From: Kitasatospora sp. CB01950 | Lineage (GTDB): Bacteria; Actinomycetota; Actinomycetes; Streptomycetales; Streptomycetaceae | Direction: 5' to 3' | DNA: 64,000 nt | Assembly: GCF_001905465.1 (NCBI RefSeq) | Contig: NZ_LISX01000009.1 | Coordinates: forward strand, 98,731-162,730 | Part shown: positions 9,997-26,964 of the stretch, piece after piece | Position numbering within the stretch: position 1 is the first letter of the stretch | Layout: each line of letters opens with the position of its first letter | Notes under the pieces: generated by a model | Told to the model about the DNA's origin: nothing | The model's database searches: none | Seen by the model: only the letters and a program-made list of their open reading frames with translations | Position numbers and translations under genes: made by a program

Positions 9997-11169
9997 TCAG
10001 GACGCCTGTTCGGCCTGCCAGGCGCGGGCGGCGGCGATGCGGCGGGTGGCGCTGGGGTGGGTGGCGAGGAGGAGTTCGAGGGCGCGGGGCGGTGCGGGGT
10101 CGGAGATGTTGGCGACCGCGAGGCGGCGCTGCATGGCGATGAACTGCTCAGTGTCGCCGGTCAGTTCGAGGGCGTGGCGGTCGGCGCGGGTTTCGATGCG
10201 GCGGCTGACGGCGCACTGGACGGGGGTGCTGGCCGCGCCGAGCAGGGCGGCCAGGGCGGCGAGCAGCGGGAGCGAACGCGGGTCCTGCGGGTGGGCGGCG
10301 CCGGCGGCGTCCAGCAGTGGCTGCCAGGCGAGCAGGGCGGCGAGGACCGGGACCACGACGGCCGCGCCGAGCGCGCCGAGCACGGTGCCGGTGGCGACGT
10401 CGCGGTGCTTGACGTGGCCGAGTTCGTGGGCGGCGACGAGTTCGACCTCGCGCGGGTCGGCGGTCTCCAGCAGGGTGTCGTGGACCACGATCCGGCGGGT
10501 CGGGCCGAAGCCGGAGACGTACGCGTTCAGCGCGGTGGTGCGGCGGGACGCGTCGGCGACCAGCACGTCGCGCACCGCGATGCCGTCGCGGCGGGCCAAC
10601 TCCAGCAGGGCGGTGCGCAGTTCGCCGTCCGGCAGCGGGGAGAAGCGGTTGAACAGCGGCTCGATCACCAGCGGGTGCAGGAACGACAGCGCCACCGTCA
10701 GCAGCGCCGCCGCGAGCGCGCCCGCCACCCACCAGTGCTCCGGCGAGCGGCCGATCAGCGTGTACAGGCCGAGCGCGAGCGGCAGGAACAGCGCGAGGGT
10801 GACGGCCGTGCCGCGCAGGACGTCCACCGCCCAGCCGGCCCAGCCCTGGGTGACCAGCCCGAACCGGGCGCGGGCGACCCGGACCCGGGCCGAGAACGGC
10901 AGCGTCACCGCCCGTCCGAGCAGCACCAGCGCCGCGCTCCCGCCCAGCACCTCGGCCGCCCAACTGCCGCCGAACCAGCTGCCGACCGCCGTCACCAGCC
11001 CCGCCCCGGCCGCCGTGAACCCGAGCGCCGCCGCCAACCCCAGCGACGCGGCCTGCCCCCCGAGCGCCCACGGCACCTGCGCCCGCCGCAACGCCCGCCC
11101 GCGCGCCACCTCCTGCGACGTGAAGTCACCGGACGCGACGGGGGACGGCGGGGGCGGAGTGTCGGTCAT
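9997..11169 (-). CDS. M48 family zinc metalloprotease (Ste24/CAAX-protease-like)
   Basis: 390-aa integral membrane protease. The zinc motif HELGH is near residue 246 in VELVAAHELGHVKHRD, and the third ligand is the glutamate in RRIETRADRHALELTG near residue 328. Six or more hydrophobic segments flank it, and the GFGPTRRIVVHDTLL segment before the active site is typical of Ste24-type M48A enzymes. In bacteria these proteases act in membrane-protein quality control; the prenyl-protein role is eukaryotic. The gene stands alone between the HAD pair and the MerR gene. Confidence 0.88.
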   Translation of the reverse strand: MTDTPPPPSPVASGDFTSQEVARGRALRRAQVPWALGGQAASLGLAAALGFTAAGAGLVTAVGSWFGGSWAAEVLGGSAALVLLGRAVTLPFSARVRVARARFGLVTQGWAGWAVDVLRGTAVTLALFLPLALGLYTLIGRSPEHWWVAGALAAALLTVALSFLHPLVIEPLFNRFSPLPDGELRTALLELARRDGIAVRDVLVADASRRTTALNAYVSGFGPTRRIVVHDTLLETADPREVELVAAHELGHVKHRDVATGTVLGALGAAVVVPVLAALLAWQPLLDAAGAAHPQDPRSLPLLAALAALLGAASTPVQCAVSRRIETRADRHALELTGDTEQFIAMQRRLAVANISDPAPPRALELLLATHPSATRRIAAARAWQAEQAS

Positions 11170-11215
11170 GCCCCCAGCGTAGTGACCGTCCCCGCCACCT
11201 CACCCCGTTCGCGCC

Positions 11216-12166
11216 TCAGGACCCCGTCGGCCGTCGCGCGACCTCGCGCAGGGCCGCCCCGAACCAGTCGAACACCGGCGTCAGCGAGGGCGGCTCCGGC
11301 CAGTCGTTGACGCGGGACAGCAGGTGCCAGTAGCGCTCGACCCGGGGGTCGGCCGCGACGTCGAGACGGGCGAGCAGCCAGGTGCGCAGGGCGGCGTCGT
11401 CCGGGCGGTCGAAGACCTGGGCGTAGCGTGCGGTCAGGTCGGCCACGACGGCCGCGGCCTGCGGCGCGTCGGGGGCGAGGCCGGCGGCGAGGGCTCCGGT
11501 GACGGCCTCGCGGACGTGTTCGGTGAGTTCGTGGTGCAGCCCGGTGGTGTCGCCGGCGGCGCGTTCCGCGGCCTGGTAGGCGGCCATCCGTCGCAGCGAG
11601 GCCCGGAAGGCGGCGTCCTGGGTGAGTTCGGCGAGTTCGACCCAGGCCGCGACCTGCGCCGGGGTGGGTTCCTCCGGCAGTTCCGGCACCGCCGTGCGGA
11701 GCATCGCCACCAGCTCGGGGTTGGCGTCCGCCGTGCCGAAGGTGTCCTCGACGAACTCCTCGATCATCCGGCGCCGTTCCTGCGAGGACAGCCTCGCCAG
11801 TCGGTGCATCAACGCGATCTCCTCCGTTTCGCTTCCCTGTTCGGCGACCGTGCGGAGCACCGCCCGGCGCAGCCGCAGCGTGCGGATCTGTGCGTCGAGG
11901 GCGTCCGCGTGCGCGCGGGCCACCTCGGCGACTGTGCTCTCCCGTTCCAGCACCTGCCGGATCGTCGCCAGCCCTATCCCCAACTCCCGCAGGGTGCGGA
12001 CCAGTTCGAGCCGCGCCACGGCCTGTGTCCGGTACCGCCGGTACCCGGCGGGGGTGCGGTCGGTGGACGGCACCAGGCCGGTGTCCGACCAGTAGCGGAC
12101 GGTCTTCACCGTCAGTCCGGTCCGTCGCGCCAACTCGCCTATCGTCACCAGCTCTTCGCCGTCCAT
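11216..12166 (-). CDS. MerR family transcriptional regulator
   Basis: 316 aa. The N-terminal winged helix reads VTIGELARRTGLTVKTVRYWSDTGLV followed by RTPAGYRRYR, the standard MerR DNA-binding half. A helical dimerisation arm runs to about residue 115. The remaining 200 residues form a long helical domain without cysteine or aromatic metal/drug motifs that I recognise. It is divergent from a GNAT gene. Its own promoter has a 19-bp spacer containing a dyad and places transcription start on the ATG, so the mRNA is probably leaderless and autoregulated. The effector is unknown. Confidence 0.87.
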   Translation of the reverse strand: MDGEELVTIGELARRTGLTVKTVRYWSDTGLVPSTDRTPAGYRRYRTQAVARLELVRTLRELGIGLATIRQVLERESTVAEVARAHADALDAQIRTLRLRRAVLRTVAEQGSETEEIALMHRLARLSSQERRRMIEEFVEDTFGTADANPELVAMLRTAVPELPEEPTPAQVAAWVELAELTQDAAFRASLRRMAAYQAAERAAGDTTGLHHELTEHVREAVTGALAAGLAPDAPQAAAVVADLTARYAQVFDRPDDAALRTWLLARLDVAADPRVERYWHLLSRVNDWPEPPSLTPVFDWFGAALREVARRPTGS

Positions 12167-12172
12167 GGCCCC

Positions 12173-12203
12173 ACTGTGCGGTCTCCCCCGGCGGGAGACT
12201 CAA
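12173..12203 (-). promoter_or_regulatory. MerR-type promoter with 19-bp spacer and dyad operator
   Basis: On the minus strand TTGAGT (12198-12203) and CACAGT (12173-12178) are separated by exactly 19 bp. The spacer is filled by the inverted repeat GTCTCCC-N5-GGGAGAC (12181-12199). Overlong 19-bp spacers with a central dyad are the hallmark of promoters activated by MerR proteins through DNA untwisting. The start point would fall on the ATG of the MerR gene. Confidence 0.6.
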
Positions 12204-12252
12204 GCCGGGCTATTCGGTCGGTAGATCTGCACGTCCGGCCTACGATGGCCGG

Positions 12253-13017
12253 ATGATGGGCGAGGAGAGTCTGCGGACAGCGCTGGAGTTCCGTCGCGGG
12301 TTCGCCCGTCGGCAGGCCGACGAGGTCGTCGAACTCCCGGGCGGTTTCGCGGTGTTGAGCGAGCCGTACCGGTATTCGCACGAGCACAACCAGCTGATCC
12401 TGGACGCCCCGCCGAGCGGCATGGACGTGGCGGGGCTGGCCGAGGAGGTGCTCGGGCACCTCGGGCACCGGCGGATCGCGGTGTTCGACGACGCGTCCGC
12501 GCTGGCGCTGGCCCCGGGTCTGGTCGCGGCCGGGTACCAGCACGAGACGGAACTGGTGATGGTCCACCGGGGGCCGGTGCCGAGCGCCGGCGGCGCGGAG
12601 CAGGTCGAACTGGCCGAGCTGGCACCGGCGTTGGACCGCCAGTGGCGCAACTGGCTGCCGTGGGCTTCGGACGAATCGATCGGGCAGCTGGTGTCGCGGC
12701 GCACCGCCCGCGAGGCCGGCGCGGACCGGGTGCTGATCCTGGCCGCGCGGGACGCCGACGGCGAGTTCGGCTCCTGGGCGGACCTCTACCAGGACGCGGC
12801 GGGCACCGCGCAGGTCGAGGACCTGGCGACGGCGGAGGGCCGACAGCATCGCGGCCTCGCCGGCCGGGTGCTGTCCACCGCCCTGCGCCTGGCCGCCGAG
12901 CAGGCCCCCGACGGCCTGCGCTTCCTGGTCGCGGACGCCGAGGACTGGCCGCAGCAGTGGTACGCCCGCCGGGGCTTCGTGCCGGTCGGCCGCACCCACG
13001 GCTTCACCCGCATGTAA
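12253..13017 (+). CDS. GNAT-family N-acetyltransferase
   Basis: 254 aa. The C-terminal half carries the acetyl-CoA-binding segment: VEDLATAEGRQHRGLAGRVLSTALRLAAE corresponds to motif A (R/Q-x-x-G-x-G/A), followed by FLVADAEDWPQQWYARRGFVPVGRTHGFTR, where W-Y-x-R-x-G-F is the usual GNAT end. The N-terminal 110 residues (PYRYSHEHNQLILD...) are a degenerate GNAT-like half. The ATG at 12253 has no Shine-Dalgarno, but TACGAT at 12241-12246 could be a -10, so translation may be leaderless. The substrate is unknown. The gene is divergent from the MerR regulator, which may control it. Confidence 0.8.
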   Translation: MMGEESLRTALEFRRGFARRQADEVVELPGGFAVLSEPYRYSHEHNQLILDAPPSGMDVAGLAEEVLGHLGHRRIAVFDDASALALAPGLVAAGYQHETELVMVHRGPVPSAGGAEQVELAELAPALDRQWRNWLPWASDESIGQLVSRRTAREAGADRVLILAARDADGEFGSWADLYQDAAGTAQVEDLATAEGRQHRGLAGRVLSTALRLAAEQAPDGLRFLVADAEDWPQQWYARRGFVPVGRTHGFTRM

Positions 13018-15271: not shown

Positions 15272-15479
15272 GACAGGAAACCCCCACACATGGTGAAACG
15301 GCAGAGCGCACCCGCGACCCACCCGGCACCACGCACGGGGAGGGGTTCGCGCTCTCGACTGCCGCCAGTCTTCTCGAACCGTGCGTCACCTCAGCAACAC
15401 GGAGCGTCAGTTCACTCCTTCGAGTGGTGTTGACGCCATTGAGTGACCGCGAGTCCCTCACGTCCCCTCCACAGCTCCG

Positions 15480-16028
15480 TCATCCGTCCCAGCGCCGCAG
15501 CGGCAGCAGCCCGAGCCCGAGTGCGGCGGCCGTCCAGGCGATCAGCACCAGCAGTCCGCGCAGCCCGTCGCGGGAGCCCACGGTGAGCAGTTCGGCCCCG
15601 GCCCGGTCCGGCAGGTAGCGGGAGAGTTCCCTGGTCGCGCCGGGCAGCGACAGCAGGTGCGAGCCGGCCAGCACCATCGGCAGCAGCACGATCAGCGGGA
15701 CGACGGCGTTGCGGGCCGCCGCGGCCGGCCCGGCCGCGAACAGGCTCATCAGCACCAGGTAGCCGACCGCGCCGACCAGCGCGCCGGGCACGCCGTCCGC
15801 CCCGATGCCCGCGCCGTGCGGGCCGAGCGCGTACTGCGTGACCAGATAACCGGCCACGGTCACGGGCGCGCCGAACGCCAGTGCCGCCAGGGCCGTTGCC
15901 GCGGTCTTCGCCAGGTAGAGCCGGCCCCGGTCGGGCACCGCCAGCAGCGAGGTCCGGATCATTCCTGAGCTGTGCTCGCCGGCCACCGCCAGCACCGCGA
16001 AGACGATCAGGGCGAGCTGCCCGTACTG
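15480..16028 (-). pseudogene. 5'-truncated ABC-2 permease remnant
   Basis: The frame from 16028 down encodes QYGQLALIVFAVLAVAGEHS and SSGMIRTSLLAVPDRGRLYL, the characteristic middle of streptomycete ABC-2 permeases, followed by four membrane segments and a normal C-terminus (RRWDG). A TGA at 16029-16031 cuts the frame just where the first transmembrane helix and N-terminal cytoplasmic arm should precede it, and no ATPase gene is nearby. No good start codon or ribosome-binding site is visible. The DNA immediately upstream (16032-16078) reads like the tail of an unrelated plus-strand frame, which suggests a deletion junction near 16030. An internal start (GTG/CTG near 15995) yielding a short protein is not excluded. 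Confidence 0.65.
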
Positions 16029-16093
16029 TCACCGGAAGCACCGCCACCATCCGCCTGAGCGCCACCGACATCGGGTGACCCGCCCCACCGCTC

Positions 16094-16921
16094 TCAGGAC
16101 ACGGACCGCAGCCGGCTCCCGGACCCGGCCAGCACTGCGGCGGTGGCCGCGTCCTCGGCCATCAGGACCACCAACTGCTGTGCGTCACCGGGTAGTTCGA
16201 GGGTTTCGCGGAGCAGTCGCAGCCGGTGCCCCTCGGGGTGGTCGAGCCGCAGGACGCCGCGGCGCGGCACCGTCGCCAGGTGCAGGCGGCGGGTGAACTC
16301 CTCGCCCGCGGCGGGGGCCAGTTCGGCGGTCAGCCACTCCAGGTTCTCCAGCGACGGCGCCTGCCACAGGTCGAAGGTCTGCTCGTCCGCGACGTCGTCC
16401 CAGTCGGCGAAGAAGGCCCGGGCCCGCGGGTCGGTGAACAGGTAGTGGTTGAGGTTGGGCCGGTCCGCGTCGAGCAGGCCCGCCGCGCCGACCACCGCCC
16501 GGAAGCCGGCGGTGTGGGCGAGCACGTCGCCCAGCCGGTTGGTCACGAACGCCGCGCCCGGCTCCAGGAGTTCGAGCATCCGCAGCACGGACCCGCGCAC
16601 CTCCCGGGAGGGCGGTACGGGCCGGACGTCGACGGCGCACGCGTCGCCGGTGATCTTGGCGAGGTAGCGCAGGTGGTTGCGTTCGGACGCGTCCAGCCGG
16701 AGCGCGTCGGCGAGCGCGCCGACCACCGCCGGCGAGGGGTTTCGGTCGCGGCCCTGCTCGATCCGGGCGAGGTATTCGACGCTGACGTCGGCCCGGTCGG
16801 CGAGGTCCTGCCGGCGCAGCCCCGGCGACCGGCGGCGTCGGCGCTCCGGCAGCCCGAGGGCCGCCGGTTGGACGGCGTCCCGTTTGGCGCGGATGAAGTT
16901 GCCCAGGGGTGTAGTGGCCAC
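16094..16921 (-). CDS. XRE-type regulator with MmyB-like ligand-binding domain
   Basis: 275 aa. The N-terminal helix-turn-helix (about 8-80) contains LPERRRRRSPGLRRQDLADRADVSVEYLARIEQGR, with the usual actinobacterial spacing. The C-terminal domain (about 110-270) has AFVTNRLGDVLAHT, NLNHYLFTDPRARAFFADWDDVA and LELPGDAQQLVVLMAED, matching the MmyB-like (PAS-type, fatty-acid-binding in MmyB) domain common in streptomycetes. It starts with GTG. It is divergent from the CynX-type MFS gene at 17024, separated by 102 bp, and probably regulates that gene. Confidence 0.88.
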   Translation of the reverse strand: MATTPLGNFIRAKRDAVQPAALGLPERRRRRSPGLRRQDLADRADVSVEYLARIEQGRDRNPSPAVVGALADALRLDASERNHLRYLAKITGDACAVDVRPVPPSREVRGSVLRMLELLEPGAAFVTNRLGDVLAHTAGFRAVVGAAGLLDADRPNLNHYLFTDPRARAFFADWDDVADEQTFDLWQAPSLENLEWLTAELAPAAGEEFTRRLHLATVPRRGVLRLDHPEGHRLRLLRETLELPGDAQQLVVLMAEDAATAAVLAGSGSRLRSVS

Positions 16922-17023
16922 GCGCCCAGCCTAGAAGCCCCGGCAACGCGCAGGATGGCCCTGCGGGGGCCACCCTGGGCAGGGCCTCGCTGCCGGTCGG
17001 CGGGCCGCCCGATGCTGACCGGC

Positions 17024-18256
17024 ATGACGAACACATCGACCCGCCGCTCGGGCCGACTGCTCCTGGTGTGGGGGCTGTTGGTGGTGGCGGCCAACCTGCG
17101 GGCGAGCCTGACCGGGGTCGGTCCGCTGCTGGACCGGGTGCAGTCCGAGCTGGGCCTGACCCCGGCCGTCGCGGGCCTGCTGAACACCCTGCCGCTGCTG
17201 GCCTTCGCCGCCCTGTCGCCGCTCGTCCCCGCGCTGACCGCCCGCTGGGGCGCGGAGCGGCTGCTCGGCGGCGCGCTGGCGGTGCTGACCCTCGGCATCG
17301 CCGTCCGTTGGATCCCCACGGCGGCGGGCCTGTTCGGCGGCACCGTGCTGATCGGCGCGGGCGTCGCGGTCGGCAACGTGCTGCTGCCGGGCCTGATCCG
17401 CCGCGATTTCCCCACCCGGGTGGGCCTGTTGACCAGCGCCTACGCCACCGTGATGGGCGGGGTGGCGGCCGTGGCGTCCGGGGTGGCCGTCCCGATCGCC
17501 GAGGCCGCTCCCGGCGGTTGGCACACCGCGCTGGGCTGCTGGGTGCTCTTCGCCCTGGTCGCGCTGCTGGCGTGGCTCCCGCAGCTGCGCACTCCCCGCC
17601 CGACCGGGCCCGCCCGCAACGGGCAACGGCTGCCCTGGAGTTCGGGGTTGGCCTGGGCGGTCACCGGGTTCATGGGGTTGCAGTCGCTGGGCTTCTACGT
17701 CGCCGTGACCTGGCTGCCGCAGGTGTTCCAGGACAACGGCTCCGACCCGGCGACGGCCGGCTGGCTGCTCTTCCTGTTCCAGGTCGTCGCGGTGCTGACC
17801 AGCCTCGCCGTGCCCGGGGCGATGCGCCGCGCCCGCGACCAACGCGGCCTGGCGGCGGCCTGCTCCGCCGTCCTGCTGGCCGGCTGGCTCGGCCTGTTCG
17901 CCCAACCCCACTGGGCCCTGCTGTGGACGGTGCTCCTGGGCCTCGGCGGCGGCGCCTGTCTGGTCCTCGCCCTCGCCTTCATCGGCCTCCGCGCCCAGGA
18001 CGCCGCCTCGGCCGGCGCCCTCTCCGCCATGACCCAGTCCGTCGGCTACCTGCTGGCCGCCGTCGGCCCGGTGGTCTTCGGCCTGCTCCACTCCCCCGGC
18101 CCCGACGGCTGGCGCGCGCCGCTGCTGCTGATGTCCCTCGCCACGACTGCCCAACTCGCGGTGTCCCTGGCCGCCGGACGGGGCACGGTGGCCGCCGCCA
18201 TACTTGACGCGACATCAGCTCGTCGGCCCGACCGAACGGAAACCTCCCCCTCATGA
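17024..18256 (+). CDS. CynX/NimT-family MFS transporter
   Basis: 410 aa with 12 predicted membrane segments. VVAANLRASLTGVGPLLDRV at the start is the NLR-x3-T/A-x-VGPL signature of the cyanate/nitroimidazole transporter subfamily (CynX, YycB, NimT). PLLAFAALSPLVPALTARWG and GNVLLPGLIRRDFPTRVGL, also family-typical, follow. The start is taken at ATG 17024; an in-frame ATG at 17012 is also possible, and neither has a strong ribosome-binding site. Its TGA overlaps the ATG of the DUF2087 gene, so the two are coupled. Substrate unknown. Confidence 0.88.
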   Translation: MTNTSTRRSGRLLLVWGLLVVAANLRASLTGVGPLLDRVQSELGLTPAVAGLLNTLPLLAFAALSPLVPALTARWGAERLLGGALAVLTLGIAVRWIPTAAGLFGGTVLIGAGVAVGNVLLPGLIRRDFPTRVGLLTSAYATVMGGVAAVASGVAVPIAEAAPGGWHTALGCWVLFALVALLAWLPQLRTPRPTGPARNGQRLPWSSGLAWAVTGFMGLQSLGFYVAVTWLPQVFQDNGSDPATAGWLLFLFQVVAVLTSLAVPGAMRRARDQRGLAAACSAVLLAGWLGLFAQPHWALLWTVLLGLGGGACLVLALAFIGLRAQDAASAGALSAMTQSVGYLLAAVGPVVFGLLHSPGPDGWRAPLLLMSLATTAQLAVSLAAGRGTVAAAILDATSARRPDRTETSPS

Positions 18257-18801
18257 CCCCCGACCAACTCGCCGTCGAACTGGCCGATCCCGCACTGCGC
18301 CGGGTGTTCGCGGCAGTCACCCTCGGCGCGTCGACCGCCTCCGAGATCCTCGCCGCGTCCGGCCTCGGCGCACCCCAGGCCGCCCCCGCCATCGGACGGC
18401 TCGTCCGCAGCGGCCTGCTCGTCCAGGGGCGCGGCACCCTCGCCCTGAACGACGCCGCCCTCGCCGCCGCGGCGGAGACCGCCGCCCGGCGGACGGCCGA
18501 CGAACTGGCCGCCGACCAGCCCGACCCCCGCCTGCGCGGCCACATCCGCGCCGGCGTCCTGGTCGACGTCCCGGACGACGCGGACGCCCGCGGCGCGGTG
18601 CTCGGCCACGTCGCCCGGAGCAGCTTCGCCGCCGACGACGAGTACGACGAACGGACGGTCACCGACCGCCTGCGGCCGTGGTGCGCGGGCGGCGCGCTCG
18701 ACGCCGTCTCGCTGCGGCGCATCCTCGTCGACGACGGCCTGCTGACCCGCGACACCGGCCGCTACCGCCTCGCCGCGACCGCCGAGGACCGCGCGGTCTG
18801 A
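18253..18801 (+). CDS. DUF2087 protein with ArsR-like N-terminal domain
   Basis: 182 aa. Residues 1-75 form a winged-helix-like unit (GASTASEILAASGLGAPQAAPAIGRLVRSGLLVQG), as in an ArsR regulator. Residues 115-175 contain EYDERTVTDRLRPWC...DAVSLRRILVDDGLLTRDTGRYRL, which fits DUF2087 (Y-x-E-x-x-V-N, D-x-x-x-LRR-x-LVD-x-G-x-L-x-R). Such proteins are thought to be DNA- or RNA-binding regulators, but no mechanism is established. It overlaps the MFS stop codon by 4 bp. Confidence 0.8.
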   Translation: MTPDQLAVELADPALRRVFAAVTLGASTASEILAASGLGAPQAAPAIGRLVRSGLLVQGRGTLALNDAALAAAAETAARRTADELAADQPDPRLRGHIRAGVLVDVPDDADARGAVLGHVARSSFAADDEYDERTVTDRLRPWCAGGALDAVSLRRILVDDGLLTRDTGRYRLAATAEDRAV

Positions 18802-19211
18802 CCACGCCCCGACCCGGCCCCGACCCGACCCGGCCCCGACCCGGTCCCAGCACCGGAGTGGGCGACCGGGCGGCAGGAGCGCGCAGGCCGAAGCCCGCAC
18901 CTCGAAGATCGACGCTCGGCGGGGTCGGGCCCCAACCGGACTCTTTCCCCGGTGCGAACGGGCCGGGCGGAGTGGTGGGGTGGGCCTGCTCCCGAAGCCG
19001 GCCGCTGCGGCCGCCCTCGCCCGATCGGCCCACGCGCCAGCACCGCGCCGCCCCGGCTGTGCGACTCCGCCGGCACACGCCCAGTGACGCCAACTGCCCC
19101 TGCCGGCCGACGAGATCCACGTTCCCCTTACGCCCGGCTCTCCGGCCCGACAGGGCACCGGCCCGTGGACACCGCCGGTACACGGAGCGCCCGCGAGGGC
19201 GGGGCGACGGC
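18802..19211. other. Intergenic region, 410 bp, no gene recognised
   Basis: This gap separates the convergent DUF2087 and lanC genes. The first 50 bp are imperfect repeats of CGACCCGGCCCC, possibly acting in termination. Open frames on both strands are compositionally like antisense, have no recognisable protein features, and are not called. I looked here for a second lanthipeptide precursor, transporter or immunity gene and found none. Confidence 0.6.
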
Positions 19212-20465
19212 TCAGCCGAGCAGCAGGAAGGTGTCCCAGGCGGGTGCGTCGGGGCGCGGGGCGGTGTGGGCGTGCAGGGCGAGGGCGGCGCCCGCCGTGC
19301 CGTCCAGCAGGCCGGGGTCGGGGGCGGCGGCGAGTGCCGCGTCGAGTTCGCGGGTGACGGTGGCGGCGAGAACGGGGAGGTGGGCGGCGAGTTCGGCGGA
19401 GCCGGAGTCCTCGGCCATCCGCTGGGCGATCCGCAGCAGGCCGCCGGTGCCGTGGCAGAGCCCGGCGCCTTCGAGGTTCCAGCCGGCCGGCTCGCGCAGC
19501 GTCCCCACCAGCGCGGCGACGGCGTCGCGCTGCCAGTCGGGGCGCCCGAGGGCCGTGCCCGCCAGGAAGAGCGCGCGGGCCACGCCGGGCGTGCCGTAGC
19601 ACCAGGCCGCGCGGGTGGGCGGGTCGGCGGGCAGCCGTCCGGCCTCCTCGTCCTCGACGCGCAACGCCATCGGCCAGTGGCACCCGACCCGCCGCGCGGC
19701 CAGCCAGCCCCCCAGCGCCGCGACGGCCTCGTCGAGCCCGGCCACCCCGACGCCGTGCAGCCGAGCCGTGGCCAGCAGCGCGAGCGGGCCCGGAATCCCG
19801 TGCGCCAGGCCCAGGTTGAGGTGCCCTCGGGGGTACTCGGGGCCGACACCCAGCGTTCCGGGGCCACCGGCGGTCCACCAGCGCGGCAACCGGGCACCCG
19901 CGTCCGGCCCGGTCAGTTCCACCAGCGCGGCGAGCAGCTCGGCGAGGGCCGGCCCGTCCGGCTCCAGGGCGAGCAGCAGCCGCCCCAGACCCGCCGCGCC
20001 CGCGACAGCATCGAACGTGGGAGCACTCAGCCCGGCCCCGGCGGCCAGCTCGGCCCGGAGCGCGACAGTGCGCGCGGCGGCAGCCTCCCGCACCCGGGGC
20101 GTCAACGCGTCCAGCAGCCCCCGGTACTCGCCCGGCCGCGCCATGGTGTGGGCGGCGAGAGCGAGAGCGGCAGCCCCGAAGTACAACCCGCCCGGCCGCA
20201 TCGCCCCGGGCGACTTCGCGGCAGCCGCAAGGTGCCCGTGCGCAGCGCGACGCAGCCTGGCGTCCGATCCCCCGTCCGGCCCGGCGTCCGCCAGCACGGC
20301 GAGGGCCAGCGCAGCCCCGATCCGACCGGTTCCGAGCGCATGCGCCGGCCGATCGCCCTCGAACACCCTTGGGGCGCTGAGCAGTTCAGCGACCCCACGC
20401 ACTACGTCCGACGCACTCACCGCCTCGACCTCCACACCCGGTATCCCGCCACGCAGTCCACTCAC
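19212..20465 (-). CDS. lanC: LanC-type lanthionine synthetase C (cyclase)
   Basis: 417 aa. The zinc site of LanC enzymes is present: Cys in AAWCYGTPGVARAL (near residue 290) and Cys-His in GLCHGTGGLLRIAQR (near 337). The (alpha/alpha)-barrel repeats NLGLAHGIPGPLALL, GAGL and LLDGTAGAALALHAH (C-terminal) are also intact. It adds cysteine thiols to dehydrated Ser/Thr of the precursor peptide to form lanthionine rings. It starts with GTG, directly overlapping by 4 bp the stop of a short frame that is a duplicate of its own 5' end, and lies downstream of lanB in the same operon. Confidence 0.92.
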   Translation of the reverse strand: MSGLRGGIPGVEVEAVSASDVVRGVAELLSAPRVFEGDRPAHALGTGRIGAALALAVLADAGPDGGSDARLRRAAHGHLAAAAKSPGAMRPGGLYFGAAALALAAHTMARPGEYRGLLDALTPRVREAAAARTVALRAELAAGAGLSAPTFDAVAGAAGLGRLLLALEPDGPALAELLAALVELTGPDAGARLPRWWTAGGPGTLGVGPEYPRGHLNLGLAHGIPGPLALLATARLHGVGVAGLDEAVAALGGWLAARRVGCHWPMALRVEDEEAGRLPADPPTRAAWCYGTPGVARALFLAGTALGRPDWQRDAVAALVGTLREPAGWNLEGAGLCHGTGGLLRIAQRMAEDSGSAELAAHLPVLAATVTRELDAALAAAPDPGLLDGTAGAALALHAHTAPRPDAPAWDTFLLLG

Positions 20466-20625
20466 TCACCCTCGAACTCCCCCGGAACGCCGAGCAGTTC
20501 AGCGACCCCACGCACCACGTCCGACGCACTCACCGCCTCGACCTCCACACCCGGCGTCCCGCCACGCAGTTCACCCACTCACCCCCAAACTCCCCCGGAA
20601 CGCCAGACAGTTCGGCAACCCGACG
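20379..20625. repeat. 113-bp tandem duplication of the lanC 5' end between lanB and lanC
   Basis: Segment 20379-20491 (the first codons of lanC) is repeated almost exactly at 20492-20604. A third, degenerate half-copy starts at about 20605 and runs to the lanB stop. On the minus strand the middle copy encodes a 35-40 residue frame (GELRGGTPGVEVEAVSASDV, then VVRGVAELLG...) matching the LanC N-terminus and ending in a TGA that overlaps the lanC GTG. It looks like a recent slippage or unequal-exchange event. Confidence 0.93.
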
Positions 20626-20627
20626 AT

Positions 20628-23600
20628 TCACTGCCGTGCCTGCCGCGCCCGGTGGGCCTCGACCGCGCCCCTGGCCAGGGCGTACGAGCGGCGCTCCGCC
20701 TCGCGGTCCATCCCCGCCAGCCGGTTGTGCCCCATGTGCAGCAGCGAGGCCAGCACGGAGTCGACCTCGACGGACGGCACCCGGGTCGCGTAGGCGGCGA
20801 GGGCTGTCGCGCGTCGCTGCCAGGCCTCGGCGAGTACGGGGTCGGCGGGCAGCAGGCCGCCTGCCGGGGCGGGCGGACCCTCGGGGCCGATGGCCTGCAG
20901 AGCAGCCCGGCGGTGGGTGCGGAAGGCCTGGTGGTGGTGTTCCGACTTCGGAAAGACGGTGGTCAGCCAGTCGACGAGCGGCGGCCCGTCGGGGCGGGCG
21001 GTGAGGAAGTCCTGTGCGGTGGCGGCGGCGTTCGCGGCGGCCAGCAGTTCCCTGGACGGGCCGCGCCCGGCCCGGGTCAGGCGCAGGGCGGCGAGGGCGA
21101 CCGAGCTGTCGGCCTGGAACACCCGCTCGGCGTCCGCGAGCAGCTCGGGGCCGCCGTACCGGTCGGCCTCCGGCTGGTAGCTCTCCAGGCGCAGGTCGGC
21201 GGCGAGACCATCGCGGCGCAGGTCGGTCACCCAGTCGTGCAGGGCGGGGAGCAGGGCGGCCGCCAGGGCCGGGGGTGCGCCGTGGAAGCGCAGCCGCAGG
21301 TGCGGTTCCGGGTCCCGGTAGCGGATGAAGAACCAGCGGTCCACCTCACCCGGCAGCGCGGCGATCAACGGAGGCAACCGGTCGGCCAGGATCTCGTCGT
21401 GCCGGGCCTCGACGGCCGCCAGCCTGGCGAACAACCATGGCCCGCCGGGCAGTTCGGGCCCACGCGAGCGGGGCGCGGGCAGCGCCCGTCGGCGACGCGG
21501 AGCGGCCTGCGGCAACGGCCGACGGCGCATCGGGACGACCAGTTCGACGGTGCGCGCACCGTCGGGCCCGCACAGCCAGCCCGCGTCACCGGCGGGCGCC
21601 AACTCCTCCTGGAGCAGCACCGGTTCGGACGAACGCGCCTGACTGTGCAACAGCCGCTGATGCCACGGGAGTTCGAGGTCCAGGCTGATCCGGTGGTCAC
21701 CGCTGACCAGCCGGACGGCGGCCGGCACGCCCCAGCGCCGACGCCACCGGGCCAGCCCGTCGGCCCACTCCTCGAACGGCGCGGCGGCGTCCGGCACGGG
21801 CGCGGACAGCCGCCAACTGGCCGGCGCCAGAACGACTCTGCCGTACCGGACCCGGGGCAGCACGGGGGCGGCGCTCACCGCTCCCCAGTCCCAGGACTGC
21901 CAGGGGCGCTGCCCGCCGAGCATCACTTCCTGTAGGAAACGGGCCACATTGGGCGCGCCCGCACGCTGGTTGAGCGCATGGTGCGCGCCGGCCCGGACCT
22001 CACGCCCAAGACTCCGCGAGAAGACGGCGAGCCGCTCCTGATCGGCGAGCACCACCAAATCGTCCAGCGGCAGCGTGGCCGGACCGCCCCGCTCGGGGAA
22101 GGCACTCACCACGACCCGATGGCCGAGCCAGTGCGGAGCCAGCGCGATGTTGGCGTGCCGAGGCCGGTAGGGAGCGAACTGCAGATGCACCTCGACCGCC
22201 TCGCCGTCACCGACCCCGGCAGCCTCGGCCATCAACAACCCAGCACCCGACGTCGCACCACCGCCGCCGCCCCGGACGGGCGACGCGACGCCCGACGTCG
22301 CGTCGCCGCCAACCCCAGCGAACACCGCAGCACTCAACACCGCGTCGCCGCCCCCGCCCGGTAGCGGTGCATTCGACGTCGTGTCGCCGCCAACTCCGGT
22401 GAACGCCACAGCACCCGCCACCGCGCCACCACCCATTGCGGCGGGCAGCGCAGCACCTGACACCGCACCGCCGCCAACTCCGGCAAGCTCCGCAACACCC
22501 GACGTCGCGCTGCCACCGCCCCCGACAGGCAACGCAGCACCCGCCACCGCATGGCCGCCAACCCCGGCAGGAATCGCGCCACCCGTCACTGCATCGCCGC
22601 CAACCCCGGCGAACGCCGCAGCATTCAACACCGCACCGCCGCTCCGGGCAGGCATCGCAGCACCCGGCACCGCGCCGCCACCGCCACCGCCACCGCCACC
22701 GCCACCGCCGGGCATCGCGACAGCCGCCACCGCATCGCCGCCAACTCCGGTGAACTCCGCAGCACCCGGCTCTGCATCGCCACCAACCCCGGCAGACAAC
22801 GCAGCACTCAGCACCGCGTCGCTGCCGCTCCCGGCGGGCAATACCGCACCTGACGTCGCGGCACGGCCACCCCTGGCAGGCAACGCCGCGCCCGACACCG
22901 CACCGCCACCACCGCCGGCGAACTCCGCAGCACCCGGCTCTGCATCGCCACCAACCCCGGCCAGCAGCGCGGCAAAGCGACCGAACGTCGCGCCGGCGCG
23001 GTCGCTGCCCGCCATCGGGGAGATCACCAGCCGGTAGTCACCGGCGTCCAGCGCCTCGACGGAGTCCGCGGCCAGTTCGGCGTACAGCTCCAACGACGCG
23101 GACGGGGTGTCGGCGGCCCGGCCCGCCGCCTCGTCCGCCGGCAGCACCAACCGGCTCAACAGCGCTTCGTCCAGCACCACTTCGGGCAGTCCCCCGTCCG
23201 GTCCCCGGTCGGCGAGGGCTCCGGTCGCGAGCTCGGCCAGCAGCCGGTCGCGGGCCGCTTCGGCGTCGGTGCGTTCTCCGGACGGCTGCGGGTTGGCCGC
23301 GCCCCGCCCGCCGACCGGGCGCCGGTAGCCGGCGGGCGGGCCCAACCCGGTGTCGGGGTCGAGCAGTTCGGTCAGCGGGACGGGGCTGTCCGTGCCGTAC
23401 CGTTCGACGAACTCCCGGTGGTAGGAGCGCAGATGCTCGGGCCCGGTGGTCGGCGGCGACAGCCGCCAGAGCGCCGTGACGGCCTGTTCCAGTTCGGTGC
23501 GGACGTGGTCGGGCAGCACGATCTCGGCGTCCAGCGCGAGGTCCGCGTGGATCGGACGGTCGGCCGGCCCGAGCCGGGCCATTCGGGCCCGCACCTCCCG

Positions 23601-24584
23601 GATCAACTCCCCGCCACACCCGCTACCGGCCTCGGCGGCCGCGTCCAACTGCGCTCCGATGCCTGCCAGTTCGGCGCGCAGCGGCAACTCGTCCGGGAGC
23701 CGGTCAAGGACGTGGCCCAGCAGGTCCGGACAGGACGCGGGCGGGGTGAGGTCGGTCAGCAGGAAGCCGTGCTCGACCAGGGCACGGACCAGGTTCGCGA
23801 CCGCTTCGGCGGGTGCGGCCAGGAACTCGGCGGCCAGCGCGGCCAGCAGCTCGGGGTGGCGGACCGGCGCACCGGCCGCCGTCATCGCGGCCCGGACCAC
23901 GGCGGTGGCACGGACGGTGCGTTCGGCGACCGGCTGCGTCTCGGCGGCATCGGCACCGGCACCGGCTGCGACCCCGCGCTCGGGCAGGTACGGCAGAACC
24001 AGCCGGTCACCGCGCACCACCGCCTGCTGGTCCGCGACCAGCAGCAGGCCGGGCAGGACGGCCGGATCGGTCCGCAGCCGGTCCAGCAGCGGGAGCAGCC
24101 AGCCGAGGTCGGGGCGCAGCACGCGGCGGTGGCCGCCGGCCCACCGGACCTTGGTCGCCGTGTCGAAGCGGGCGGGGGCCACGGCGGCCATCAGCCCGAA
24201 CGGGGTGGGCCGGGTCGACATCCTCAGCCGGTAGCGGCCGACGGCCTCGGCCGCGCGGCGCAGCGCGGCGGGCCGCAGCACAGCCCCGGCGGCGACCTGC
24301 GCGAGCTGGTCGGCCAGCGAGGGGCTGGATATCTCGATCGCCTCCCGCAGCACCGGATCGGCGGCGGCCTCGGCAAGGTACTCGGCCATCGCAGCCCGCC
24401 GGACGTCCTCACCCCCGAGGCCCCCGACGTCCGCGAGCCCCCCGAACTCCCCAAGGCCCCCAAAGTCCACCGGTTCGGCCGGGGCGGTCCTGCGGTGCCG
24501 GCGCGGCAGTGCCGGGCTGCGCAGCAGAACCGGCCCGGTGGCTGTGAAGAGTGGGTCCTGCCGCGCCGCCGCTGTCTCGCCCAC
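20628..24584 (-). CDS. lanB: Full-length LanB lanthipeptide dehydratase with a 14-aa repeat insertion
   Basis: About 1318 aa from GTG 24584. It uses glutamyl-tRNA to glutamylate and then eliminate Ser/Thr of the precursor. The N-terminal glutamylation domain starts PLFTATGPVLLRSPALP and contains RMSTRPTPFGLMAAVAPA, the usual LanB R-x-T-PFGL motif, and GATFGRFAAL. The C-terminal SpaB_C elimination domain starts WLFARLAAVEARHDEIL and has WFFIRYRDPEPHLRLRF. Between FGRFAAL and the next core segment (VHLQFAPYRPRHANIALAP), where relatives have a short loop, about 243 residues of tandem 14-mers are inserted. The start follows GGAG and lies downstream of a good promoter (24650-24678), which argues against the longer open frame to 24767. 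lanC follows. Confidence 0.92.
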   Translation of the reverse strand: MGETAAARQDPLFTATGPVLLRSPALPRRHRRTAPAEPVDFGGLGEFGGLADVGGLGGEDVRRAAMAEYLAEAAADPVLREAIEISSPSLADQLAQVAAGAVLRPAALRRAAEAVGRYRLRMSTRPTPFGLMAAVAPARFDTATKVRWAGGHRRVLRPDLGWLLPLLDRLRTDPAVLPGLLLVADQQAVVRGDRLVLPYLPERGVAAGAGADAAETQPVAERTVRATAVVRAAMTAAGAPVRHPELLAALAAEFLAAPAEAVANLVRALVEHGFLLTDLTPPASCPDLLGHVLDRLPDELPLRAELAGIGAQLDAAAEAGSGCGGELIREVRARMARLGPADRPIHADLALDAEIVLPDHVRTELEQAVTALWRLSPPTTGPEHLRSYHREFVERYGTDSPVPLTELLDPDTGLGPPAGYRRPVGGRGAANPQPSGERTDAEAARDRLLAELATGALADRGPDGGLPEVVLDEALLSRLVLPADEAAGRAADTPSASLELYAELAADSVEALDAGDYRLVISPMAGSDRAGATFGRFAALLAGVGGDAEPGAAEFAGGGGGAVSGAALPARGGRAATSGAVLPAGSGSDAVLSAALSAGVGGDAEPGAAEFTGVGGDAVAAVAMPGGGGGGGGGGGGAVPGAAMPARSGGAVLNAAAFAGVGGDAVTGGAIPAGVGGHAVAGAALPVGGGGSATSGVAELAGVGGGAVSGAALPAAMGGGAVAGAVAFTGVGGDTTSNAPLPGGGGDAVLSAAVFAGVGGDATSGVASPVRGGGGGATSGAGLLMAEAAGVGDGEAVEVHLQFAPYRPRHANIALAPHWLGHRVVVSAFPERGGPATLPLDDLVVLADQERLAVFSRSLGREVRAGAHHALNQRAGAPNVARFLQEVMLGGQRPWQSWDWGAVSAAPVLPRVRYGRVVLAPASWRLSAPVPDAAAPFEEWADGLARWRRRWGVPAAVRLVSGDHRISLDLELPWHQRLLHSQARSSEPVLLQEELAPAGDAGWLCGPDGARTVELVVPMRRRPLPQAAPRRRRALPAPRSRGPELPGGPWLFARLAAVEARHDEILADRLPPLIAALPGEVDRWFFIRYRDPEPHLRLRFHGAPPALAAALLPALHDWVTDLRRDGLAADLRLESYQPEADRYGGPELLADAERVFQADSSVALAALRLTRAGRGPSRELLAAANAAATAQDFLTARPDGPPLVDWLTTVFPKSEHHHQAFRTHRRAALQAIGPEGPPAPAGGLLPADPVLAEAWQRRATALAAYATRVPSVEVDSVLASLLHMGHNRLAGMDREAERRSYALARGAVEAHRARQARQ
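22230..22958. repeat. About 17 tandem 42-bp units encoding a Gly/Ala 14-mer inside lanB
   Basis: Units read GVGGDAEPGAAEFA, GVGGDAVTGGAIPA, GVGGHAVAGAALPV, GVGGGAVSGAALPA and similar; lengths are mostly 14 codons, with 13- and 15-codon variants and one 21-codon unit enlarged by a (CCACCG)n run near 22673-22712 that encodes 12 glycines. The array is 729 bp, in frame throughout, with no stop or frameshift. Units have drifted at many positions, so the array is not brand new. Confidence 0.93.
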
Positions 24585-24649
24585 AGTGCTCCTCACGCCG
24601 GTCGGGTGACTCCTGGGTGCCGTCGGCCGAGTTCGGACGGCATCCGGGT

Positions 24650-24678
24650 TGTGTATCGCGGCGATCGAGAACTGTCCA
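24650..24678 (-). promoter_or_regulatory. Probable lanB-lanC promoter
   Basis: On the minus strand TGGACA (24673-24678) and TACACA (24650-24655) are separated by 17 bp. The predicted start lies about 60 bp upstream of the GTG at 24584, leaving room for the GGAG ribosome-binding site. This is a prediction from consensus only. Confidence 0.5.
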
Positions 24679-24747
24679 TGGCCGATCGACCGTAGACGGA
24701 CTGAGTCGATGATTGACCGAATACGATCGCCCGGCGGCGCAGAACCA

Positions 24748-24777
24748 TTGTCCGGCCGGTCACCCACTGCCTAACGT
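24748..24777 (+). promoter_or_regulatory. Probable promoter of the lanthipeptide precursor gene
   Basis: TTGTCC (24748-24753) and TAACGT (24772-24777) are separated by 18 bp, followed by a leader of about 45 bp with AAAGGGAGG 6 bp before the ATG. This is a prediction from consensus only. It is divergent from the lanB promoter, with about 70 bp between the two. Confidence 0.45.
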
Positions 24778-24827
24778 CCGATGCTGTCCGCCGCGTCCGA
24801 TGCGGCAGCGAGGAAAGGGAGGCTCAC

Positions 24828-24962
24828 ATGGCCGACGACATGAACGAGCTGTTCGACCTGGACGTCCACGACCTGATCTCCACCGAGTCCGACGCGGCGG
24901 AGCAGGCCAGCATCAGTGACCTCTGCGTCACCGGGTCCTGTCACCGCCCGTACTGCATCTGA
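24828..24962 (+). CDS. lanA: Class I lanthipeptide precursor peptide
   Basis: 44 aa, preceded by AAAGGGAGG 6 bp before the ATG. The acidic leader MADDMNELFDLDVHDLIST contains FDLD, the class I leader box (FNLD in nisin) recognised by LanB/LanC. The probable core is SISDLCVTGSCHRPYCI, with three Cys and four Ser/Thr. SISDLC followed by TGSC resembles rings A and B of nisin-type peptides (SISLC, TPGC); the third Cys could bridge to Ser10 or another residue. The leader/core boundary is not certain; the AEQA before the first Ser is a plausible protease site. It diverges from lanB and ends in a hairpin terminator 25 bp downstream. Too short for most gene finders. Confidence 0.88.
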   Translation: MADDMNELFDLDVHDLISTESDAAEQASISDLCVTGSCHRPYCI

Positions 24963-24986
24963 CGCTTCGGCGCTCGCGTCAGAACG

Positions 24987-25032
24987 GGGCGCGGCTGCCC
25001 GGACCGTGCGAACGGTCCCGGCTGCCGCGCCC
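24987..25032. terminator. Hairpin between lanA and the convergent oxygenase gene
   Basis: GGGCGCGGC (24987-24995) pairs with its complement at the right edge (to 25032), and GGACCGT pairs with ACGGTCC around a GCGA loop. The two stems are separated by a small internal loop. It would terminate both the precursor transcript and the opposing oxygenase transcript. A smaller stem GACGC/GCGTC lies at 24961-24980. Confidence 0.65.
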
Positions 25033-25049
25033 TTGTGTGCGTTCCCGGC

Positions 25050-25985
25050 CTACGCCGGGTCCTGGCCGAGCGGCCCGTGCGACCCGTGCGGCCCGTGCGG
25101 CCCGTGCAGCCCGCTCTCGTCCGCCGTGGGCAGCGGCCCCCTGGCCAGGCGCAGCAGTTCCTCGGGGGTGAGTGCGGCCAGCCGCTCCCGGCCGAGCCGC
25201 AGCAGTTCGGCGGCGGCGGCCAGCAACTCCGCCTCGGTCGCGGGGCGTTGCGGCAGCGTCGCGGCCCGGCCGCCGCCCGCCAGCCACTCGCCGATGGCTC
25301 CCCACATCCCTCCGGTGCCCGCTTCCCGGACGGTGAAGGACAGGTGGACGGAGAGCCCCGCGTGGCCGGTCGCGGCATGCGCGGCGCCGCGCGGCACGTA
25401 CAGCACCTGGCCCGCCCGGAGCACCGTGGCGAGCGCCACCGGGCCGGGCTCCGGGGCCGGTCCGGGGTGCCAGCGCCCGTCGGCGGGCGCCTCGTGGACG
25501 GTCCACTCCTTCTCGCCGGCCAGCTGGACGACCAGCACGTCCGCGTCGTCCCGGTGCACGTCGAGCCCGCGCCGGCCTGGCCCGGTGGCGAAGCAGAACG
25601 CCTCGGTGCGCCGGCCCAGGGTGCGCGCGATGTCGGCGGCCAGCGCGCGCACGGACGGGTGCCACTGGTCCAGTTGCGGCAGCAGTAGCGTTGCGCCCTC
25701 GGCGAGCAGCGCGCCGATCCGCTCGGGGTCGGCGAAGCCCTGCTCGCGACGCCCGGCCACGGTGCGGGTCGTACAGAACTCCGCGGCCGGGACGACCTCC
25801 CCCGCCCGGACCATCTCGACGTACGGCACCCGCAGCAGCCCGCCGCGCAGCACCTCGTCCAGATCCTTCGGCCCGGGAACCCCGACGGGCCAGGCGTCCG
25901 GGGCGAACACCTCCGGCTGCCGCTTCGCCAGCAGTTCGACGAAGGCCGCCGTGTCCCCCACCAGTCCGGCCAGTGCTCCCGCCAT
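25050..25985 (-). CDS. JmjC/cupin-4 Fe(II)/2-oxoglutarate oxygenase, putative lanthipeptide tailoring enzyme
   Basis: 311 aa. The double-stranded beta-helix fold of cupin-4/JmjC proteins (PF08007, ribosomal-oxygenase type) is visible: GGLLRVPYVEMVRAGEVVP near the N-terminus, the iron-binding HxD in LDVHRDDADVLVVQLAGEK (about 143-145) and the distal histidine in LYVPRGAAHAATGH (about 202). Such enzymes hydroxylate amino acid side chains in proteins or peptides. The gene ends 88 bp from the precursor gene, facing it, so hydroxylation of the lanthipeptide is a reasonable inference, not shown. The C-terminus has GPHGPHGSHGP from a 9-bp repeat. The start at 25985 follows GGGAGG. Confidence 0.82.
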   Translation of the reverse strand: MAGALAGLVGDTAAFVELLAKRQPEVFAPDAWPVGVPGPKDLDEVLRGGLLRVPYVEMVRAGEVVPAAEFCTTRTVAGRREQGFADPERIGALLAEGATLLLPQLDQWHPSVRALAADIARTLGRRTEAFCFATGPGRRGLDVHRDDADVLVVQLAGEKEWTVHEAPADGRWHPGPAPEPGPVALATVLRAGQVLYVPRGAAHAATGHAGLSVHLSFTVREAGTGGMWGAIGEWLAGGGRAATLPQRPATEAELLAAAAELLRLGRERLAALTPEELLRLARGPLPTADESGLHGPHGPHGSHGPLGQDPA

Positions 25986-26286
25986 CGTCCGTCCTCCCGC
26001 TCCCGCGGCCGATCCGGGGCCGGCCGTCCCCCACAACTACGGACCGCGACCGGCCGCCGGTCCACCCCCGCCCGACCGATCGGTCGGCTATCGGCCACCT
26101 TTGCGCGGGCTTCACCGGCCGGCCATATCGCCGCCGCCGCCAGGACATCGCAGTTCACCGGACGTTACGCACGGTAATCTCCGACCGAAGCTCCACACCT
26201 CGCGCACTCCGTTCCGGCGGGAGTGATTTAGATCACAGCAACCGCGCCCGGCGGCCGACCGTACAGGACCGATTCGCCGCGCGGCG
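25986..26286. other. Intergenic region, 301 bp, with two palindromes
   Basis: No gene is seen. It is the 5' region of the oxygenase gene. CCGACCGATCGGTCGG (26072-26087) is a perfect 16-bp palindrome of the kind bound by TetR-family repressors, about 90 bp upstream of the oxygenase start. AGTGA-N6-TCACA (26222-26237) resembles a CRP/Crp site. Neither has a neighbouring regulator gene, so both are only candidates. Confidence 0.5.
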
Positions 26287-26964
26287 TTACGGCAGACGCC
26301 AATCCACCGGCTGCCCGCCCTGCCGGACCAGCAGGTCGTTGGCGCGGCTGAACGGGCGGGAGTTGAAGAAGCCGCGGTCGGCGGAGTACGGGCTCGGGTG
26401 CGACGACTCGATGCTGGGCACCTGGCCCAGCCACGGCCGCAACTCCTGCGCATCGCGGCCCCACAGGATCGCGACCAGCGGGCCGCCACGCGCCGCGAGC
26501 GCCTTGATCGCCTGCTCGGTGACGGCCTCCCAGCCCTTGCCGCGGTGGCCGTTGGTCTGGCGGGTCTGCGTGGTCAGCGCCCGGTTGAGCAGCAGCACGC
26601 CCTGGTTCGCCCACGGCGTCAGGTCGCCGTTGGACGGCGGCGGGAAGCCCAGGTCGGTGCTGTACTCCCGGTAGATGTTGATCAGACTCTTCGGAATCGG
26701 CCGGACATCCGCGCCGACCGAGAAACTCAGACCGACGGCGTGACCCGGCGTCGGGTACGGGTCCTGACCGACGATCAGCACCCGGACGTCCGCGAACGGC
26801 TGCTGGAAGGCCCGCAGCACCTGCGGCCCCGGTGGCAGGTACGTCCGGCCGGCCGCGATCTCGGCGCGCAGGAAATCGCCCATCGCGGCGACCTGTCCGG
26901 CGACCGGCGCAAGGGCCTCGGCCCAGCCGGCTTCAACAACTTCGTGCAAGGGTCGTGCAGCCAT
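26287..26964 (-). CDS. ung: Uracil-DNA glycosylase, family 1
   Basis: 225 aa, normal length for Ung. It removes uracil from DNA in base excision repair. Seen: the catalytic water-activating motif [18 protein letters not shown] (Asp near residue 66), [10 protein letters not shown], the uracil-recognition segment, and the leucine-loop motif [12 protein letters not shown] with the catalytic His near residue 188. The ATG at 26964 opens [14 protein letters not shown]. Streptomycetes often carry two family-1 genes; whether this is the only copy cannot be told here. The gene stands alone on the minus strand. Confidence 0.96.

Follow-up and report, generated by a model that had tools for sequence, protein, structure and literature searches.

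Oxygenases of the JmjC/cupin type act on ribosomally synthesized peptides in biphenomycin-type pathways, where BipG, BpmG and PbsQ hydroxylate ornithine (itself made from arginine) in RiPP precursors, as far as the accessible portions of the reports describe (PMC12707348, PMC12257519). Those clusters encode an MNIO, an arginase and a radical SAM enzyme, whereas the locus described here combines a JmjC gene with LanB and LanC; the likeness, drawn from the partly accessible descriptions and not from sequence, is that of a JmjC/cupin 2-oxoglutarate-type oxygenase working on a ribosomal peptide, demonstrated there and predicted here. Bacterial relatives of RRE-fused JmjC proteins, which like our protein belong to PF08007, are described as occurring in RiPP-like contexts, and the accessible part of that report names no lanthipeptide cluster for them (PMC12710340). 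Our literature survey, which took in few subscription papers and some sources only in part, turned up no described JmjC enzyme of a lanthipeptide, no arginine hydroxylation in a lanthipeptide and no hydroxyarginine hydroxylase of ribosomally synthesized peptides. No title or abstract that we found describes the present system, and the main text of PMC9576775 mentions no JmjC, cupin or hydroxylase.

The locus lies in a 64,000-nucleotide stretch of the Kitasatospora sp. CB01950 genome (the window). Like other actinobacterial class I lanthipeptide loci, with their 5ehk-like LanB proteins and FxLD leaders, it encodes a full-length LanB, a LanC with the expected motifs and a precursor with an FDLD leader box. 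It differs from them in that the cassette, in which we saw no leader peptidase, dedicated LanT or recognisable immunity gene, regularly includes JmjC, and in that its precursors do not carry the lipid II motif of nisin and gallidermin. The precursor has 44 residues (MADDMNELFDLDVHDLISTESDAAEQASISDLCVTGSCHRPYCI; 24828-24962, plus strand), with an ELFDLDV box in the leader and a core that ends in GSCHRPYCI, and so combines an FxLD leader with a Ser/Thr/Cys core. It is matched by a precursor family profile built from ten rows, its own among them (E=7.6e-25). It reaches no Pfam cut-off (Gallidermin gives 15.7 bits against a cut-off of 21), and the NCBIfam search returned no family for either the precursor or the JmjC protein.

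LanB (20628-24584, minus strand) matches both PF04738 (E=2e-188) and PF14028 (E=1e-53), the glutamylation and elimination domains, and its closest solved sequence is 5ehk, a lantibiotic dehydratase. It contains WFFIRYRDPEPHLRLR, RYGG and SLLHMGHNR, which we take to be functional motifs of these two domains. Translation likely begins at a GTG (24584) closely preceded by GAGGAG, and the resulting protein of 1,318 amino acids owes its length to a Gly/Ala-rich insert. LanC (19212-20465, minus strand; PF05147, E=1.1e-33) has LAHG, WCYGTPG and GLCHG, presumably the active and zinc site, with the Cys-Cys-His zinc ligands in WCYG and GLCHG. These results bear out an earlier note on this DNA, which had read from it a class I lanthipeptide locus with a 44-residue FDLD precursor, a full-length LanB and a zinc-complete LanC; the assignment is further supported by the recurrence of the layout in other genomes (see below). 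A pearlin-type scaffold peptide was also considered, but the two-domain LanB and the presence of LanC spoke against it.

The LanB insert (22203-22955, minus strand) is a long in-frame Gly/Ala/Val-rich repeat of 42/84-bp tandem units, about 250 residues (approximately 546-796) placed between two parts of the first domain, with tandem arrays detected from 22385 to 22961; it may form a flexible loop, lengthening as the repeats slip. With ranges as cut for comparison, the window LanB (1320 amino acids) is the longest among 13 cassette LanBs, the other 12 spanning 1032-1160 amino acids, one of them (L043) cut by a contig end. A 113-bp tandem repeat of 2.4 copies (20356-20625) puts a duplicate of the lanC start into the lanB-lanC intergenic region.

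The lanB and precursor genes are divergent and share a gap of 243 bp. Within it, a conserved element (TGCCTAACGTCCG...) and the ribosome-binding site of the precursor gene occupy 24768-24827 (plus strand); the 60 bases upstream of the precursor are similar across ten aligned precursor genes, from which we infer a promoter role. On the other side, the precursor and JmjC genes face each other, as the earlier note had seen, across 87 bp (24963-25049) instead of the 88 bp it gave. This gap holds a hairpin (24986-25032; fold −56 kcal/mol, z −3.9), which is probably a two-way terminator for both genes. The corresponding gaps of the 14 other loci, folded with no shuffle control, range from −13.6 (L034) to −267.8 (L041, 420 bp). 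The hairpin was dropped as proof, since it would be an ordinary terminator and is weak in L034.

The JmjC gene (25050-25985, minus strand) encodes a JmjC_2 Fe(II)/2-oxoglutarate oxygenase of 311 amino acids (PF08007, E=3.6e-15; 56 bits against a cut-off of 22). All 34 aligned JmjC proteins keep its HxD...H triad (H144, D146, H203). An AlphaFold model (mean pLDDT 91.2) has as its closest structural neighbours NO66 (Z 23.1), MINA53 (21.5), Bacillus subtilis YxbC (18.9) and Escherichia coli YcfD (18.0). By their entry titles, NO66 and MINA53 are histidine hydroxylases, YxbC is a putative asparaginyl hydroxylase, and YcfD-like proteins are arginine hydroxylases of ribosomal protein L16. The window protein shares with NO66, MINA53 and YcfD the fold and the metal triad (model residues 1-290), but it is only 17-23% identical to them, is shorter (311 amino acids against solved chains of 360-461) and is encoded in a biosynthetic cassette. 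NO66, MINA53 and YcfD carry a winged-helix domain C-terminal to their JmjC and dimerisation parts; in our model the final helix of the ordered part ends at residue 282 and confidence is low from residue 292. Repeats of 9 bp (25066-25113) encode a GPHGPHG tail on the protein, modelled with low confidence.

Comparison with sister genomes places the cassette in an accessory island of about 10.5 kb (15737-26276), whose left edge falls within 15435-15737 and right edge within 26276-26291. Four sister genomes (G035, G058, G069 and G029) keep both the left flank up to 15.44-15.74 kb and the right flank from 26.28 kb, at a distance of 0.6-3.6 kb from each other, and none of the four has a DNA match to the 10.5 kb in between. 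A glycosylase on the right flank is present in 69 of 70 genomes of the genus, and a tRNA scan of the window found none. The protein search listed no JmjC match at any of the four empty sites; elsewhere in these genomes, G035 and G058 have paralogues, G069 has a remote one and G029 has none. Since both flanks are present there with neither lan genes nor JmjC, the oxygenase arrived together with the lan genes, and the idea that it is a neighbour belonging to the flanks was rejected. The earlier note had assigned the oxygenase to the locus, naming as evidence to the contrary its presence beside the same neighbours in genomes that lack lan genes; this did not occur at the empty sites.

The island also carries, outside the conserved cassette, genes for an MFS transporter and a DUF2087 protein (16226-18801, plus strand). 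The MFS gene (16226-18256, plus strand; PF07690, E=6e-24) lies about 1 kb beyond LanC, so the earlier statement that no transporter is adjacent was only partly right. An export role for this protein is possible; among the ten orthologous loci, an MFS gene beside LanC was found only in L037.

How widely the cassette occurs was assessed by several searches. A JmjC protein search across 199 relatives gave ten orthologues at 69-80% identity. Identity then drops to about 40-51% for paralogues, and many more distant proteins were also matched. In seven of the ten orthologous regions precursor, LanB, LanC and JmjC occur in the same layout; in two (L040, L043) precursor and JmjC are accompanied by a LanB that a contig end cuts short, and in one (L042) JmjC stands alone. 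A further scan of genome contigs using the JmjC alignment, which relied on two exact peptide patterns and so misses distant members, gave 12 loci: six repeats of known cassettes, one paralogue without lan genes (L085) and five more from Streptomyces, in which JmjC is 59-61% identical and the cassette is complete in four and decaying in one (L081). The layout therefore recurs beyond chance in 14 further loci (11 complete, two cut by contig ends and one decaying), and with the window included 15 loci have a precursor, 12 of them in complete cassettes. Among 394 Streptomycetaceae genomes, a JmjC orthologue (E<=1e-72) is present in 12, a precursor profile match (E<=1e-3) in 12, and both in 11 (Fisher p=1.9e-19, a value that ignores kinship and includes the genomes from which the profile was built). 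The two exceptions are G019 (L042), with a JmjC orthologue and neither lan genes nor precursor, and G392 (L129), with a weak leader-only precursor match beside a LanB of 38% identity and no JmjC. A genus-wide LanB search of 70 genomes, whose matches outside the cassette were sampled as 18 regions (L131-L148), found no JmjC in any of the 19 other LanB loci of this partial sample (L129 included); 17 of these extend far enough for a verdict, and L131 and L138 break off with their contigs.

Distances between JmjC proteins correlate with those between LanB proteins (r=0.97 over 13 cassettes and 0.88 over the nine of the window's genus), which could arise from shared descent alone; the only contrast used was uracil-DNA glycosylase identity to the window. 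By that measure, G022 has the glycosylase nearest to the window's among cassette genomes (90%), yet within the genus its cassette is the least similar (JmjC 67%, LanB 66%), so the cassette does not simply track species phylogeny. Flanking genes are mostly not common to the cassettes, with the exception of L035 and L036, which have several in common. We regard it as very improbable that the oxygenase is a bystander, or the maker of an unrelated small molecule, tied to the lan genes only by the mobile island. Its convergent transcription and the P450-like and NRPS-like genes that adjoin related JmjC genes would fit such a role, but the same block is found in 15 loci with mostly different flanks, and this, like the close co-occurrence and the matching divergence of JmjC and LanB, speaks against it. 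The cassette is real, conserved and mobile, and the oxygenase belongs to it.

A second pairing of JmjC with a class I lanthipeptide is found in L046 (G024) and in L169 (G304, another genus). Like the window, these loci have a precursor, here with an FELD box, together with LanB, LanC and JmjC; unlike the window, they have the order precursor-LanB-LanC-JmjC on one strand, another core and a JmjC from another branch. The two precursors have in common the C-terminus TGSWPFYCKTTI, in which a Lys is the sole basic residue. Since the L046 JmjC sits on a different branch of the tree from the cassette JmjC proteins (the L169 protein, 75% identical to it, is represented in the tree by L046 only), the association of JmjC with class I lanthipeptides probably arose twice. 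L135, a LanB relative of this second type that has no JmjC, encodes a core that contains SWPYSC and two Arg and lacks Lys; L131 resembles it and its contig ends 0.3 kb after LanB.

Other JmjC paralogues keep different company. In the 43 paralogue loci (L044-L073, L169-L181) fetched from a longer list, lan genes occur in two (L046 and L169) and in none of the other 41. In 12 of 40 fetched JmjC loci (L051, L054, L055, L057, L059-L062, L064, L067, L069 and L070) the paralogue adjoins a gene that is P450-like by eye, with an odd haem-type loop, FDGARCWAKH. Paralogues in L044, L047, L049 and L052 lie beside condensation-like proteins (named by eye), three of the four with adenylation-like and ABC exporter genes and two with a small protein resembling a carrier, so that a JmjC enzyme seems to take part in an NRPS-like pathway there. 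Six loci hold a further, distinct family of class I precursors whose C-terminus, T(Y/F)TSPSSYAIGTRCP(V/I)CC, is nearly constant (L142, L143, L145-L148), one of which (L145, G000:C1) is in the window's own genome; no JmjC was found near these precursors in the regions fetched.

Two loci bear on whether the oxygenase serves the peptide at all. In L042 the JmjC orthologue occurs without lan genes, as a role outside the peptide would allow. In the tree the cassette JmjC proteins and that of L042 fall on one side of a well-supported branch (100/99), and the L042 protein adjoins that of L041 (99/97), nested within the cassette clade; the simplest reading, given this nesting, is a loss of the lan genes, which suggests that JmjC outlived them. 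In L081 (Streptomyces sp. ERV7; 10961-12316) the JmjC gene is open while the precursor is shortened, the LanB match gives out around residue 377, shortly before a stop, and no LanC match was found in the locus. Both cases count against peptide tailoring, as do the 41 paralogue loci without lan genes and the convergent orientation of the JmjC gene, which places it outside the precursor operon. The two cases would instead suit an oxygenase that protects the producer by hydroxylating the cellular target of the peptide, for example a ribosomal protein: its fold kin are ribosomal oxygenases, the cassette has no recognisable immunity gene, and JmjC is the surviving part in L042 and L081, as immunity genes can be. 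We nevertheless consider protection improbable, since the second lanthipeptide type with a JmjC from a different branch is more easily explained by tailoring of the peptide, and since the JmjC enzymes studied in RiPP clusters, insofar as the accessible accounts go, modify the precursor.

If the oxygenase tailors the peptide, conservation of the core points to its target. S30, C33, G36, S37, C38, R40, P41, C43 and I44 are invariant in both precursor alignments (ten rows each), and Arg-Pro is constant across all 15 precursors; even the decaying L081 precursor, which has lost GSC, keeps it. Position 39 is His, Thr or Phe, position 42 is Tyr, Leu, Trp or Phe, and the Asp/Glu that precedes GSC in other precursors is replaced by Val-Thr in the window. 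The earlier suggestion of Asp, His, Arg, Pro and Tyr as possible targets can accordingly be narrowed to Arg and Pro. Its description of the product as nisin-ring-like finds no support: SxxxCTP(G/S)C, the motif quoted for nisin and gallidermin in the part of the source available (PMC7268733), occurs by eye in none of the 15 precursors, and a nisin-like lipid II motif was rejected on this ground.

Because Arg-Pro is constant while the Asp, His and Tyr candidates vary, Arg40 is the predicted target and Pro41 the next candidate. The two residues do not by themselves require JmjC, because L135 keeps both in its core without one, and for the same reason Pro was lowered as prime target. The constant Arg, the Lys in the cores of L046 and L169, and the precedent of BipG, BpmG and PbsQ as ornithine hydroxylases make a basic side chain the most likely target. 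Against Arg, the best structural match is a histidine hydroxylase and some precursors have His at position 39. It is conceivable, if rather unlikely, that the oxygenase acts elsewhere on the peptide (at His39 in those precursors that have it, at Pro41, or at a residue with an acidic or aromatic side chain) or assists ring chemistry. The two closest solved structures (NO66 and MINA53) carry His hydroxylase titles and Pro41 is as invariant as Arg40, but positions 39 and 42 and the acidic position before GSC all vary, and the Pro is kept in a relative without JmjC.

What the analysis establishes is the gene set, its conserved linkage, a JmjC metal site that is intact, and the constant Arg-Pro. 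On this basis we favour, with reasonable though limited confidence, a mobile class I lanthipeptide cassette whose JmjC enzyme hydroxylates the core; the reactions, their order and the target are proposals. LanB would dehydrate Ser/Thr of the precursor, whose three cysteines LanC would join in thioether rings. As an Fe(II)/2-oxoglutarate oxygenase, the JmjC enzyme would hydroxylate the core, with the side chain of the invariant Arg40 as the favoured site and Pro41 as the lesser candidate. Enzymes encoded elsewhere than in the conserved cassette would export the product and remove its leader; in this genome the island's MFS protein may be one of them. The wider proposal, that JmjC enzymes hydroxylate a basic residue of class I lanthipeptides (Arg40 here, Lys in the second type) and were recruited at least twice from different JmjC branches, seems to us attractive at somewhat below even chances.

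If this reading is true, a JmjC enzyme resembling the ribosomal oxygenases would tailor lanthipeptides at a specified residue, and the 15 precursors would provide a natural series on which to test this. JmjC would then serve as a single-gene marker for compact lanthipeptide cassettes, and hydroxylation of a basic residue would be a new lanthipeptide modification that brings with it a new genomic marker.
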